From assembly GCA_902619105.1 (NCBI GenBank), contig CACNCV010000002.1, positions 236,436 through 297,071 on the forward strand: a stretch of 60,636 nucleotides of DNA, read 5' to 3'. Below are positions 12,676 to 51,793 of this stretch, piece by piece. Below the pieces are notes generated by a model. That model was not told the origin of the DNA. It searched no databases and saw nothing but the letters and a program-made list of their open reading frames with translations. The stretch comes from an uncultured Pelagibacteraceae bacterium (GTDB lineage Bacteria > Pseudomonadota > Alphaproteobacteria > Pelagibacterales > AG-422-B15). How positions within the stretch are numbered: position 1 is the stretch's first letter; every line of letters begins with the position of its first letter. The translations under genes were made by a program, and so were the position numbers.

Positions 12676-13602
12676 ATGATGAGCGAAAGATACGAAAATT
12701 TAATGAAACGTATTCATGCTGGAGAAAATATTCTTCTTGACGGGGCCACAGGTTCAGAACTTGAAAACCGTGGTATTAAAATGGATAATTCTTGGTGTGG
12801 TACAGCCTCCTTAGAGAGCGATACATTGAAGCAAATACATAAAGATTATATTGAGGCTGGCTCAAGTATTATAACTACTAATACTTATGCAACAAATCGG
12901 ATGATCTTAGAAACTGCAGGGGTAGATAATCAATTTAAAGAAATAAATCTAAGTGCGATAAATGCAGCTCTTAAAGCAAGGGAGGAATGTGGTAGAGATG
13001 ATGTACTTATAGCTGGGTCCTTATCTCATCAAATACCGTATGAGGATGCTTTTGAAACACAAGAAGAAAGAGAGAAATTTAAGAAAAAACTCACACCCGA
13101 ATATTTTCAAAAATCCTTTGATGAGCTCGCTTTTTTTCTAGCCGATAATGGGTGTGATTTTATTCTACTCGAGTTGATGTATCGACCAGATCGAATTGAG
13201 ATAATTTTTGACTCAGCAAGTAAGGCTGGATTGCCTGTGTGGGCTGGATTTTCATCTAGAAATAAAGATGGGTTGATAGCCCTTACTACAGACTATGACT
13301 ATAGTTTTAAAAAAATGATTAGTAATGTGAAACATCATAAGTTGGATGCTGTAGGAATAATGCATTGTGAAATTAATGTAATAGAACAAAGTATTAAAGA
13401 ACTTAAAGAAGTATATGACCTTCCTGTTATGGCGTACCCAGAAGTAGCGGTATTTAATTTTCCACACTACGACATGAGCAATGTAATTTCTCCTGATGAT
13501 TATTTAATTGAAGCAAAAAAGTGGAAGGATGCTGGAGCACAAATTATAGGTGGATGTTGCGGCACAACAGTTGAACACATTAAAGTACTCAATCAATTAT
13601 AA
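12676..13602 (+). CDS. Homocysteine S-methyltransferase family protein (betaine-homocysteine methyltransferase-like)
   Basis: A 308-aa zinc methyltransferase. ILLDGATGSELENRGI (about 19-34) is the family N-terminus. The three zinc cysteines are in place: Cys231 in GIMHCE, and Cys294/Cys295 in the C-terminal GGCCGT. Relatives methylate homocysteine using betaine (BHMT) or S-methylmethionine (MmuM). Beside a betaine importer, dimethylglycine dehydrogenase and sarcosine oxidase, betaine is the best guess for the donor, which would give dimethylglycine and methionine. Start: two adjacent ATGs (12676, 12679) with no strong ribosome site, so the first codon is uncertain by one residue. Confidence 0.85.
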   Translation: MMSERYENLMKRIHAGENILLDGATGSELENRGIKMDNSWCGTASLESDTLKQIHKDYIEAGSSIITTNTYATNRMILETAGVDNQFKEINLSAINAALKAREECGRDDVLIAGSLSHQIPYEDAFETQEEREKFKKKLTPEYFQKSFDELAFFLADNGCDFILLELMYRPDRIEIIFDSASKAGLPVWAGFSSRNKDGLIALTTDYDYSFKKMISNVKHHKLDAVGIMHCEINVIEQSIKELKEVYDLPVMAYPEVAVFNFPHYDMSNVISPDDYLIEAKKWKDAGAQIIGGCCGTTVEHIKVLNQL

Positions 13603-27408: not shown

Positions 27409-28752
27409 CTAGCCTTTTACAACTTCTCTTGTATTCGCGTTGAAAGACTCAGTGAACGGAACATCAACTGTTACGGCGTCTACTGGTACTCCTGGCTCAT
27501 CAGCATAAATATCAGGTAAATGAACTTTAAATTTTTTACCTAGTTCCCATTTTGGAAAACCATTTGGATTAAGAGTTCCATCAAAAGGTATATAACCCAT
27601 AGCTATATTTTTTCCTTTTTCAGGATGATACCAAGGTGAAGTAATAAAGCCACATGGGTCTCCACCGTCACCAGGAGACACAAGCCAAAAATCAGGCGCA
27701 TACTCATCAATTGGTTTGCCACCAATCTCAAATCCAACCAATTGTAACTTGTATGGCTTATGACCATCTTTCAAGTCAGCCTTCATCTTTTCAAGCGCTT
27801 GCTTACCGATATAATCACCTTTTTTCTCCCACTCACCTTTTCCAGATAAAGAAACTTGATAGCCCAGATTACATTGAAAAGGATTGTGCTCATGATCTAA
27901 GTCCTGACCCCAGGATAAAATACCTGCTTGTATTCTTCTGTGGTGAGCAGGTGCGATAACCATTAGATTATGTTTCTTGCCTGCTTCCAAAACGGCATCC
28001 CACATATCGTCGGCATAGAGCGTCGCATTTCGTAAATAAATTTCATAACCGGACTCGCCAGAGAAACCAGTTTGAGAAATCACGCAACTTCTTCCACCAA
28101 CTTTAACTTCTGCTAGACCATAAAAAGGAATATTATCAAGATCAACTTGATCACCCACTAGGTCTTTCATTAAGGCAATGGCTTTTGGTCCTTGAATTTG
28201 AACAGGGCACGCGTCGATCTCATCTATTTCTACATCAAATCTTTTATCAGCGTTTACGCCTTGTAAATAAAGTCCAATATCTGAATCTGACAAACTAAAC
28301 CAAAACTCATCTTTTGAGATTCTTAAAAGAATAGGATCGTTTAGGACTCCACCCTTATAGTTACATAATATTACGTACCTAGCTCTTAAGGGGGATATCT
28401 TTGTAGCATCTCTCGTAATTACATAGTCTGTAAATTTTTCAGCATCTGGACCAATTACACGTATTTGTCTCTCAACTGCAACATTCCACATAGTCACGTG
28501 GTTTTTAATTGCTTCATATTCAACCATTGCTCCACCATCTTCTGGCTTTACATAACCCCTGGGATGATAAATACGGTTATAAACTGTTGCTCTCCAACAA
28601 CCCGCTTCCATCGACTTATGCCAGTATGGTGACTTTCTCACTCGAGTTGAAATCAACATTTCAACTTTTGTTGGTCCACTTTGGCGTAAATTGTATGGAA
28701 CATGTCTGTCGCTTTGATCAACAGTAGTGTTATGTTCTATTTTTTTAGACAT
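27409..28752 (-). CDS. Second DmdA/GcvT-like THF-dependent demethylase (long form)
   Basis: 447 aa, longer than DmdA (~369) or GcvT (~370) because of an N-terminal extension (about 30 residues before LISTRVRKSPYW) and an extended C-terminus (VDAVTVDVPFTESFNANTREVVKG). The core keeps MWNVAVERQIRVIGPDA, GGVLNDPILLRI, WFSLSDSDIGLYLQG and SQTGFSGESGYEIY. It overlaps the MetF-like gene upstream by 8 bp, so methyl-THF from this enzyme would go straight to MetF. Substrate candidates are DMSP, a methoxy or an N-methyl compound; LigM-type aryl demethylases look more distant. GGAG lies before the ATG. Confidence 0.82.
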   Translation of the reverse strand: MSKKIEHNTTVDQSDRHVPYNLRQSGPTKVEMLISTRVRKSPYWHKSMEAGCWRATVYNRIYHPRGYVKPEDGGAMVEYEAIKNHVTMWNVAVERQIRVIGPDAEKFTDYVITRDATKISPLRARYVILCNYKGGVLNDPILLRISKDEFWFSLSDSDIGLYLQGVNADKRFDVEIDEIDACPVQIQGPKAIALMKDLVGDQVDLDNIPFYGLAEVKVGGRSCVISQTGFSGESGYEIYLRNATLYADDMWDAVLEAGKKHNLMVIAPAHHRRIQAGILSWGQDLDHEHNPFQCNLGYQVSLSGKGEWEKKGDYIGKQALEKMKADLKDGHKPYKLQLVGFEIGGKPIDEYAPDFWLVSPGDGGDPCGFITSPWYHPEKGKNIAMGYIPFDGTLNPNGFPKWELGKKFKVHLPDIYADEPGVPVDAVTVDVPFTESFNANTREVVKG

Positions 28753-29485
28753 AGTAGTTCTCCTTTTCTAACCATTCGTTTGCTTTTTTTATTCCACCAA
28801 ACGCATAAATGTGAAAATGTTCAACGTTCTCTTTTAATTCTTGAATTACATCATCAGGTGTCTGAACAGTCAATAAATCAAAAATTTTAGATGCATTTTT
28901 TTTTGCGAAATTAAGCGTATTCTTTAGTCCAACAAATCCAGCGAATTTAACTAGAGTCTTCATAGAAGCCGGACCCGCAACGCCTACATGAACAGGAAGT
29001 GGTGCTCCAGAAATAAAAGACGATAATGCGTCTGTATCTTGTGTCCACTGTGTTACAATATAGTCAGCAAATGGGGCCTTTGATTTCATTGCTTCTTCAA
29101 TAGCTGCATCGCTCATATTTGGAGATCCTTCAGGGTGACCAGCAATACCTATTTTCATTCCATCAAACAATCCAGTTTCTATAAGTTGAAGTGAACAATG
29201 ATATTTTCCTAAAATATCTCGATCACCACCAATTATTAAAACTTGTTTAACTCCAGCCTCTTTAACTTGCTCAATATATGACTTTAACATATCTGAATCA
29301 GTAATTGAACGTGCTGGAAAGTGAGGAATGGGATTATAACCTGCACTAGCTAACGCTTTGGTTTGTTCAATAACGTCAAGATAACTTGTGCCAGGCAAAA
29401 ATGTAATATAAATATCATTGAGTTTAGGCAAATCGGATAGATTTGTCTTTGTAGTCACCTCTAATGAAAAATTTACATTTCCCAT
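28745..29485 (-). CDS. Short methylenetetrahydrofolate reductase (MetF-like)
   Basis: A 246-aa MTHFR-fold protein, shorter than E. coli MetF (296). Visible are FLPGTSYLDVIEQT, PHFPARSITDSD, QVLIIGGDRD, GIAGHPEGSP, DYIVTQWTQD and LPVHVGVAGPASMKTL. These correspond to FAD- and folate-binding loops (HFPAR, GG-DRD, GYPE-like GHPEG, TQ-x-x). Joined by overlap to a methyl-THF-producing demethylase, it probably runs in the oxidative direction (methyl-THF to methylene-THF) rather than for methionine synthesis. A related metF-ligM arrangement is known in sphingomonads. Its leader can form a pseudoknot (see 29509-29558). Confidence 0.85.
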   Translation of the reverse strand: MGNVNFSLEVTTKTNLSDLPKLNDIYITFLPGTSYLDVIEQTKALASAGYNPIPHFPARSITDSDMLKSYIEQVKEAGVKQVLIIGGDRDILGKYHCSLQLIETGLFDGMKIGIAGHPEGSPNMSDAAIEEAMKSKAPFADYIVTQWTQDTDALSSFISGAPLPVHVGVAGPASMKTLVKFAGFVGLKNTLNFAKKNASKIFDLLTVQTPDDVIQELKENVEHFHIYAFGGIKKANEWLEKENYYV

Positions 29486-29508
29486 AATGCTGTTAATGAG
29501 TGTACCGC

Positions 29509-29558
29509 TTAAGCCACGCGAATTTTAAATTGCACTGCTTGGCTTAATTTTGCAGCGC
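29509..29558 (-). promoter_or_regulatory. Predicted H-type pseudoknot in the metF-like mRNA leader
   Basis: Read on the minus strand: stem 1 GCGCUGC (29558-29552) with GCAGUGC (29538-29532), 7 pairs including one G-U; stem 2 UUAAGCCA (29547-29540) with UGGCUUAA (29516-29509), 8 pairs. The stems interlock, with loops of 4, 1 and 15 nt, the shape of SAM-II, SAM-V and preQ1 riboswitches. On the plus strand the G-U becomes an A-C mismatch, which favours RNA in the metF direction. The 3' strand ends 23 nt before the metF ATG. I could not match it to a known class by sequence. Confidence 0.5.
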
Positions 29559-29675
29559 TATTTGAGTCTCCTAAAACAAAATTTAAGTAAAAATTTGTTC
29601 TATAGCAATACATTTTTGTAGACTCCTATCTGTAAAGTTCTTAAGTTGTCTAGGTTTTTAATATTAGTATCATTT

Positions 29676-31343
29676 ATGGCTGTACTCTCAGATATTGAAA
29701 TTGCTAGACAAAATAGCATGGCTCCTATTGAAGAAATTGCTTCAAAATTAGACTTAAAAGATCAAAATCTCCAAAAATTTGGCCACCACATTGCTAAAAT
29801 TGATACTCAACATATAGAAAGTAATGGCAAAAACGGAAAACTCATTTTAGTTACAGCCATTTCGCCTACCCCAGCGGGTGAAGGAAAGACTACTACATCA
29901 GTTGGTCTTAGTGATGGCTTAAATAAAATTGGAAAACAGTCATTGGTATGCTTGAGAGAACCCAGTTTAGGACCTTGCTTTGGTGTCAAAGGTGGTGCTG
30001 CAGGAGGTGGTTACGCCCAAGTAGTACCAATGGATAAAATTAATTTACATTTCACAGGTGATTTTCATGCAATCACATCAGCACATAACCTCCTTGCATC
30101 GATGATTGATAACCATATTTATTGGGGAAACGATTTAGGAATTGATACAAGAAGAGTGGTTTGGGGACGTGTTGTAGATTTAAATGATCGTGCTTTAAGA
30201 AATATTAATGTTAATTTAGGCGGTATAGCCAACGGATACCCTCGTGAGGATAAATTCGATATTACTGTTGCATCTGAAGTGATGGCAATTTTTTGTTTAT
30301 CTACAAGTTTGGACGATTTACAAAATAGACTTGGGAATATCATTGTTGGTTACACAAGGGAAAAGAAAGAAATTACGGCCCGAGACTTAAATGCAGACGG
30401 CGCGATGACTACTTTGCTAAAAGATGCTTTCTTACCTAATCTTGTTCAAACACTTGAAAAAAATCCTGCTATCATTCATGGGGGTCCTTTTGCAAATATT
30501 GCCCATGGATGCAATTCTTTAGTTGCTACTCAAACTGCTCTTAAATTAAGTGATTATGTTGTAACAGAAGCAGGCTTTGGTGCAGATCTTGGAGCAGAAA
30601 AATTTTTAGACATAAAGTGCCGTAAAGGAAAATTAAATCCTTCAGCAATAGTAATAGTTGCAACAGTTCGAGCGTTAAAAATGCATGGTGGTATGGATAA
30701 AAAAGAATTAAAAAATGAAAATGTTGAAGCTGTAAAAAAAGGTTTATCAAATTTAAAGCAGCACATTGCAAATATGCAAATGTATGGAGCGCCTGTTACA
30801 GTTGCTATTAATCATTTCATATCTGACAGTGAAAAAGAATTATCAGCAATCAGCGATTGCTGTGACTCATTAAATGTAAAGTCATTTAATTGCACACATT
30901 GGAGCAATGGTGGTGCAGGCACAGAGGAACTAGCAAAGCACATAGTAGAAATTACCGAGCAAAATGCTCCAAAGATAAAGCACCTGTATCCGGACGAAAT
31001 GAAATTGTGGGATAAGATGAAAAAAATTGCACAAGAAATATATGGAGCGAGCGATATTATTGCTGACCAAAAAATAAGAATGCAGTTTGACGACTTGGAG
31101 GAAAAATATGGCCATTACCCAATATGTGTAGCTAAAACTCAATACAGCTTCTCAACTGATCCAAATCTAAGAGGCGCTCCAAAAGACCATGTAGTTCCTA
31201 TCAGAGAAGTTAGACTAGCAGCGGGTGCAGAATTTCTTGTAGTTGTATGCGATAAGATTATGACTATGCCAGGTCTGCCTAGAGTTCCAGCTGCAAATGC
31301 TATACACTTAAATAAAAATGGCGACATAGAGGGATTGTTTTAA
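29676..31343 (+). CDS. fhs: Formate-tetrahydrofolate ligase
   Basis: 555 aa, the normal length. The family signature [18 protein letters not shown] (P-loop, about residues 62-79), [40 protein letters not shown] and [13 protein letters not shown]-like ([18 protein letters not shown]) are present. It makes or, in reverse, cleaves 10-formyl-THF with ATP/ADP, so it can end C1 oxidation by releasing formate and ATP. I start at ATG 29676 ([10 protein letters not shown]); a TTG 30 bp upstream is not supported. Divergent from the metF-demethylase pair and overlapping the acyl-CoA ligase by 1 nt (TAATG). Confidence 0.96.
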
Positions 31344-51577: not shown

Positions 51578-51793
51578 TTAATCTCTGAATAACCAGAGAA
51601 TAACACCAACAGCAATCAATCCAACAACTCCGGCATTACCTAATTGGTTCACTAGAGATACGATATTGCTGGCTATATTGCCAACAAATGGGATGCTTCC
51701 TCCGCTGAGTAGGCCAACAACAATACCCAAAGCTAGCAGTGAAAGACCAAGGCTTGTTAGAGCCTTTATCGCGTTCTGTGCGTTTCTAATCAT
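51578..51793 (-). CDS. Small two-helix membrane protein, paralogue A
   Basis: A 71-aa protein: LGLSLLALGIVVGLLSG helix, loop GSIPFVGNIASNIVSLVNQLGNA, second helix GVVGLIAVGVILWLF. A strong ribosome site (GAGGGGG, 7 nt from ATG) and an upstream 16-bp palindrome suggest high or regulated expression. Paralogue of the 75-aa protein downstream. Function unknown; the twin arrangement with conserved loop NQLG suggests that the pair may form a hetero-oligomer. Confidence 0.72.
   Translation of the reverse strand: MIRNAQNAIKALTSLGLSLLALGIVVGLLSGGSIPFVGNIASNIVSLVNQLGNAGVVGLIAVGVILWLFRD

Follow-up and report, generated by a model that had tools for sequence, protein, structure and literature searches.

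A conserved orphan pseudoknot RNA in the metF leader of one SAR11 family is a candidate riboswitch

Main finding

Comparative sequence analysis identifies the leader of a metF-like gene in one family of SAR11, a group of abundant ocean bacteria, as a real, conserved and orphan cis-regulatory RNA that is not in Rfam. The element was studied in the window, that is, the whole stretch of 60,636 nucleotides analysed here, whose near relatives are titled Pelagibacteraceae or Pelagibacterales, which places it in SAR11; its family we take to be subclade II. A compact H-type pseudoknot is followed by a hairpin that holds the metF start codon, and the best reading would be a lineage-specific orphan riboswitch or leader RNA, with a riboswitch as the best single reading. 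We give even chances to the fuller proposal that the pseudoknot is a metabolite-sensing riboswitch acting on translation, with a folate or one-carbon metabolite as the most plausible ligand. The initial annotation had presented the pseudoknot as a candidate riboswitch: the RNA proves to be conserved, read on the metF strand, tied to metF and compensated in one of its stems, and ligand binding stays the candidate part of that description. Were it a switch, it would show one lineage's way of metering metabolic flow and would provide an orphan aptamer as small as ~55 nt.

Structure of the pseudoknot

The pseudoknot occupies positions 29558-29509 of the minus strand, 5' of the MetF-like gene, and rereading of the window sequence reproduced the stems, pairings, loops and distance to the gene described in the initial annotation. 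Stem P1 pairs GCGCUGC (29558-29552) with GCAGUGC (29538-29532) over 7 bp, including one G-U, and stem P2, the pseudoknot stem, pairs UUAAGCCA (29547-29540) with UGGCUUAA (29516-29509) over 8 bp. In minus-strand order the elements run P1, AAAA (4 nt), P2, A (1 nt), P1', a 15-nt loop and P2', and 23 nt lead from the 3' end of P2' to the metF AUG at 29485. An H-type pseudoknot with stems of 7 and 8 bp arose once when the intergenic region was dinucleotide-shuffled 400 times, a plain stem search of both strands found three such places in the whole window, and the ordinary folding energy of the leader is unremarkable (z -1.07). The evidence from the single sequence is thus unusual, not unique, and suggestive, not decisive; the pseudoknot is judged real because it is conserved in 27 distinct leaders. 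The other two places have their 5' ends at 51581 and 9789, both on the minus strand. The strand P2' lies within the invariant CGCGTGGCTTAAGCG (29506-29520, minus strand), where it is flanked by CGC (29520-29518) and GCG (29508-29506). These two triplets could pair into a small stem, P3, enclosing the P2 strand, which would give a kissing-loop form; they are identical in all 27 rows, hence P3 yields no covariation signal.

Conservation and covariation

The core alignment (A1) comprises 18 distinct sequences, a wider alignment 20 and the leader alignment (A2) 27. Every row of A2 has the blocks TGCAAAATTAAGCCAAGCA (19 nt) and CGCGTGGCTTAAGCG (15 nt) without a single difference, and on a tree of 18 metF sequences these 34 core sites underwent no change at all; mean numbers of changes on the same tree were 1.84 for upstream sites, 2.17 for the linker and 2.93 for third codon positions of metF. 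The initial annotation had looked to compensatory change in the stems for confirmation; P1 compensates, and P2 never varies. In A1, two-sided changes affect four of the nine P1 pairs and 89.5% of P1 cells are paired. L075 and L078 carry one internal mismatch each. None of 500 shuffles matched the covariation score of the whole structure, a result that was the same when 500 shuffles were made of the 27 rows; the count of pairs that change on both sides was attained in 298 of 500 shuffles of A1. A tree-based test placed three of the nine P1 pairs at E 0.013, 0.016 and 0.061, with three further pairs that never vary and three that are not significant, on a background in which several unrelated column pairs score similarly and the top one higher. 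The stricter helix test gave 590/5000 for P1 as aligned and 181/5000 once a bulged base was removed from two rows. Compensatory support for P1 is moderate. Its direction is given by the 17 G-U and zero A-C cells counted in P1 among the 18 distinct sequences of the family, which point to the metF sense alone and bear out the earlier argument that the G-U pair marks the transcript direction. The P2 pairing is present in 27/27 rows with zero variation, so that covariation offers no test of it; that the two invariant blocks hold eight Watson-Crick pairs was equalled in 5 of 20000 block shuffles.

Start-codon hairpin and linker

The best clue to mechanism is a start-codon hairpin that is new here and absent from the initial annotation. 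It extends over 29464-29485 of the minus strand as AUGGGAAAU-GUAA-AUUUUUCAU, with 9 bp and the metF AUG inside, and was returned together with P1 by RNAalifold on 20 leaders. Its pairs are intact in all 27 leaders, where the only substitutions in the pairs turn U-A into U-G and A-U into G-U, at third codon positions, and every codon change in the hairpin either preserves a pair or falls in the loop. Across the 20 leaders Gly2 is written only as GGA or GGG, Asn3 and Asn5 only as AAT, Phe6 only as TTT and Ser7 only as TCA or TCG, while the loop codon Val4 and codons 8-12 of metF vary. Of the other invariant residues in metF, one of the four Asn, none of the six Phe, one of the 15 Gly and one of the four Ser show a hairpin-compatible codon pattern. 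Among the 55 open reading frames of the window, metF is the only one whose AUG is fully paired at -4.5 kcal/mol or lower within the first 24 nt. Synonymous versions drawn from codon usage folded as well as the real start region in 468 cases out of 5000, so that selection on the hairpin is indicated by the evolutionary pattern more than by energy. The hairpin suggests translational control, and it would bring such control to a setting where the Shine-Dalgarno sequence is seldom used: a Shine-Dalgarno-like 4-mer is present in 8 of the 55 window frames, and none stands before metF.

Between pseudoknot and hairpin lies a variable AU-rich linker (29486-29505, minus strand) free of a Shine-Dalgarno sequence, 20 nt long here and 16-22 nt among loci. 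A search for switch pairing that would join the two structures found nothing beyond a weak AAAAUU/AAUUUU match, which is retained merely as a weak idea, and no terminator-like site was found in 29440-29720.

Promoter region and 5' end

The likely metF promoter lies at 29580-29608 on the minus strand, with TTGCTA (29608-29603) and TAAATT (29585-29580) separated by 17 nt. Both hexamers are conserved in the 20-row alignment, and this conservation points to a likely transcript start near 29572; a consensus promoter scan made no call at the site. The putative 5' end coincides with the conserved AGGAGACTC (29564-29572, minus strand), and AGGAGAY is retained in all 18 matched core sequences, with an offset of one column in L063 and L073. 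In the window it reads AGGAGAC, which is perfect as a Shine-Dalgarno-like word; no start codon stands at a usable distance from it. A small upstream frame (AGGAG, then TTG CAA AAT TAA) was rejected on the ground that the window lineage has CTG instead of TTG, as was an upstream extension of metF, for which open frames add no more than a few codons in several members. The initial annotation had also suggested a preceding hairpin from the pair GAGTCT/AGACTC. One of its arms may go untranscribed, because the conserved promoter-like hexamers, at which the consensus scan was silent, fall between the arms. A second conserved intergenic block, at 29600-29660 on the minus strand (ACTTAAGAA ... GTCTA..AAAAATGTATTG), lies between the starts of metF and of a formate-THF ligase and probably corresponds to the two promoters; it contains CTTAAG, which is also found in the pseudoknot core.

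Distribution

A pattern search of the order matched 44 of 297 genomes, namely 44 of the 53 in the window's family and none of the 244 in the sister family. A covariance model of the metF-leader RNA (R1), searched in family, order, class and phylum genome samples, found the same 44 family genomes, each with a single match at an E no higher than 5.5e-17, including all 12 high-quality genomes of the family. The nine family genomes that lack the element comprise eight without a metF match and one whose metF is cut off by the contig start. Wherever the core occurs among loci (133/133 copies, redundancy included), it precedes the metF start by 16-22 nt. R1 gave no credible copy in the 244 sister-family genomes, found only the genome of origin and one weak match (G314, E 0.0012) among the 385 genomes of the class sample, and recovered the genome of origin alone at E up to 0.001 among the 398 of the phylum sample; these samples overlap with one another and with that of the order, and the stricter filters of the large searches are able to lose weak matches. 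As far as seen, the element belongs to one family and one gene.

Nine weak sister-family matches in the order sample (E 0.0036-0.038, 244 genomes) are no more than chance expectation at the per-genome cut-off of 0.05. The family genome G092 has a second match within an open frame at a looser threshold (E 0.034), and the genome of origin has three weak matches besides the metF leader (E 0.64, 4.2 and 7.4). Twelve weak matches outside the metF leader, that is, the nine in the sister family, those in G092 and G314 and the one at E 0.64, were taken as chance because all lie inside open frames of at least 168 aa, on either strand. Fifteen pattern matches on viral contigs were rejected for want of the invariant GCAAAATT block, and a MetF scan of the viral contigs gave no relative. 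The metF leaders of the sister family (14 stretches and L071, searched with filters off) yielded nothing better than E 0.2, and the motif is absent from them by eye. Six sister-family metF leaders (L149, L153, L155, L156, L159 and L160) share a different stretch directly before metF, consisting of GAATTTCTTTGACAG, about 20 nt and a word like or similar to ATAATGATC, an arrangement suggestive of a strong promoter and a very short leader.

Metabolic setting

The gene downstream of the RNA encodes a MetF-like methylene-THF reductase of 246 aa (28745-29485, minus strand; PF02219, 29.3 bits; PDB 7xg9, E 1.5e-34) that scores far under the NCBIfam cut-offs. It is overlapped, in the same operon, by a gene for a GcvT/DmdA-like aminomethyltransferase (27409-28752, minus strand; PF01571, 140 bits; PDB 3tfh), whose best NCBIfam model is DmdA at 236.6 bits against a cut-off of 410, and the formate-THF ligase gene is divergent from metF, at 29676. 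According to Sun et al. (PMC3160333), the Pelagibacter pair SAR11_1264-1265 is such a metF-aminomethyltransferase pair and metF is placed in methyl-THF oxidation, a route proposed for SAR11 that the two genes fit. The genome of origin has two homocysteine S-methyltransferase-type frames (310 and 351 aa, PF02574), and its PF02574 matches include no MetH-sized frame; these features fit methyl-THF oxidation and make a folate the first ligand candidate. One homocysteine S-methyltransferase-type frame lies in the window (12676-13602, PF02574, 169 bits) and the second elsewhere in the genome. Expression values are at hand for Pelagibacter HTCC1062, which we take to be a member of the sister family. 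In Table 1 of PMC5069961, the stationary-phase mRNA of metF and its partner falls to 0.20/0.12 and 0.10/0.10, with listed protein values of 1.38/1.46 and 1.29/1.30. These data show that SAR11 regulates an operon of this kind and bear on the fact of regulation, not on its manner.

Discussion

In general, a riboswitch is expected to be a structured leader that is conserved and accompanies a metabolic gene, and such a leader was found here. We propose that metF and the aminomethyltransferase gene share an mRNA whose 5' leader is this RNA: a compact pseudoknot, built on an invariant core that resembles an aptamer, and ~20 nt downstream of it the hairpin that hides the AUG. The ligand would stabilise the folded pseudoknot at the upstream edge of the ribosome landing site; the 30S subunit could then not open the hairpin and MetF would not be made (OFF). 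The most plausible ligand would be a folate or one-carbon metabolite that the two enzymes produce or consume, such as THF or 5-methyl-THF. In this scheme we infer the promoter, the translational level, the OFF direction, small-molecule binding and the identity of the ligand alike. A translational switch is the natural reading, because there is no terminator-like site and no Shine-Dalgarno sequence and the AUG sits in a hairpin ~20 nt past the pseudoknot; that ligand binding would close the system is suggested by likeness to SAM-V as presented in PMC6061858. A more specific version is somewhat doubtful: a new riboswitch class of one SAR11 family, whose pseudoknot (possibly in kissing-loop form) senses a folate, for instance 5-methyl-THF or THF, or a methylated osmolyte and gates methyl-group oxidation through a hairpin that locks up the metF start codon, in place of a hidden Shine-Dalgarno sequence. 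It speaks against a riboswitch that invariance throughout a stem is unusual in an aptamer and might reflect recognition by protein or of DNA, and that one copy per genome before one gene is a narrow distribution.

The leader may instead be the target of a protein, whether MetF, the aminomethyltransferase or some other RNA-binding protein, in translational feedback that involves no small-molecule aptamer, a reading that we hold to be unlikely without dismissing it: an entirely invariant P2 is expected of a sequence-specific protein site, and a single copy before one operon agrees with it, but no candidate RNA-binding protein was identified and invariance extends equally to the single-stranded bases of the loops, as it does in aptamers. 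It is rather improbable that the leader is constitutive, setting mRNA stability or basal translation with no sensing at all. Its narrow distribution and an AUG hairpin that could merely tune translation would suit such a role, whereas 34 invariant positions, loops included, go beyond the needs of a mere stability pseudoknot. We find it very improbable that the conserved sequence is a DNA operator, in which a transcription factor would bind the inverted repeat TTAAGCCA / TGGCTTAA. That repeat is invariant and adjoins the promoter, yet the spacing between the invariant half-sites varies by 1-2 nt, P1 compensates between the repeats with the one-directional G-U signature of an RNA, and the site lies downstream of the presumed promoter.

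Descent from SAM-II or SAM-V by divergence is hardly credible, even though the H-type layout and a methyl-metabolism gene invite it and a replacement is conceivable given that SAM-V was found in none of 36 genomes from the window's family and in 12 of 23 from the sister family (stricter filters). No Rfam family matched at the gathering cut-off, and searches with two members found, among matches up to E 10, no SAM family nor any other; the library detects SAM-II at 44.7 bits in the genome of origin and SAM-V at ~85 bits in the sister family. In particular, the metF leader gave no match to the models of SAM-V (RF01826), SAM-II (RF00521, SAM_alpha), THF or SAM-SAH, the last two being families that we presume to lie in the plausible ligand field; the initial annotation had likewise been unable to align it with the SAM-II and SAM-V cores. 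The motifs of the 2017 set of 224 candidates were covered solely as far as Rfam includes them. The leader resembles SAM-II in being an H-type pseudoknot, and SAM-V in being a short one close to the start codon, in leaders of SAR11 methyl/sulfur genes. SAM-V controls translation from near the start, according to PMC6061858, and hides a Shine-Dalgarno sequence just 3' of its pseudoknot; the metF leader differs in lacking that sequence, in pairing the AUG itself and in a core unlike the SAM-V consensus.

The favoured reading, an orphan riboswitch or leader RNA, has a counterpart in the candidate novel riboswitch before ordL in Pelagibacter, as reported in PMC5069961. Both are orphan leader RNAs of SAR11 methyl/sulfur metabolism; by description, on which alone the two were compared, the ordL RNA differs in its gene and in belonging to the sister family, in whose 244 genomes R1 has no credible match. 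No title among the literature matches listed was recognised as describing a metF-leader RNA, and the word "metF" is absent from the main text of PMC2704228 and PMC2864571. SAM-II occurs elsewhere in genomes of the window's family: of the 53, 43 have a match with E no higher than 1e-3 and 37 have one above the cut-off. The copy above cut-off in the genome of origin (C1:162628-162704, minus strand; L200:1029-1105) precedes a MetX-like frame, named by eye, and is unlike the metF leader in having a terminator-like stem with a T-run; it is probably by this SAM-II match that SAM is sensed in the family.
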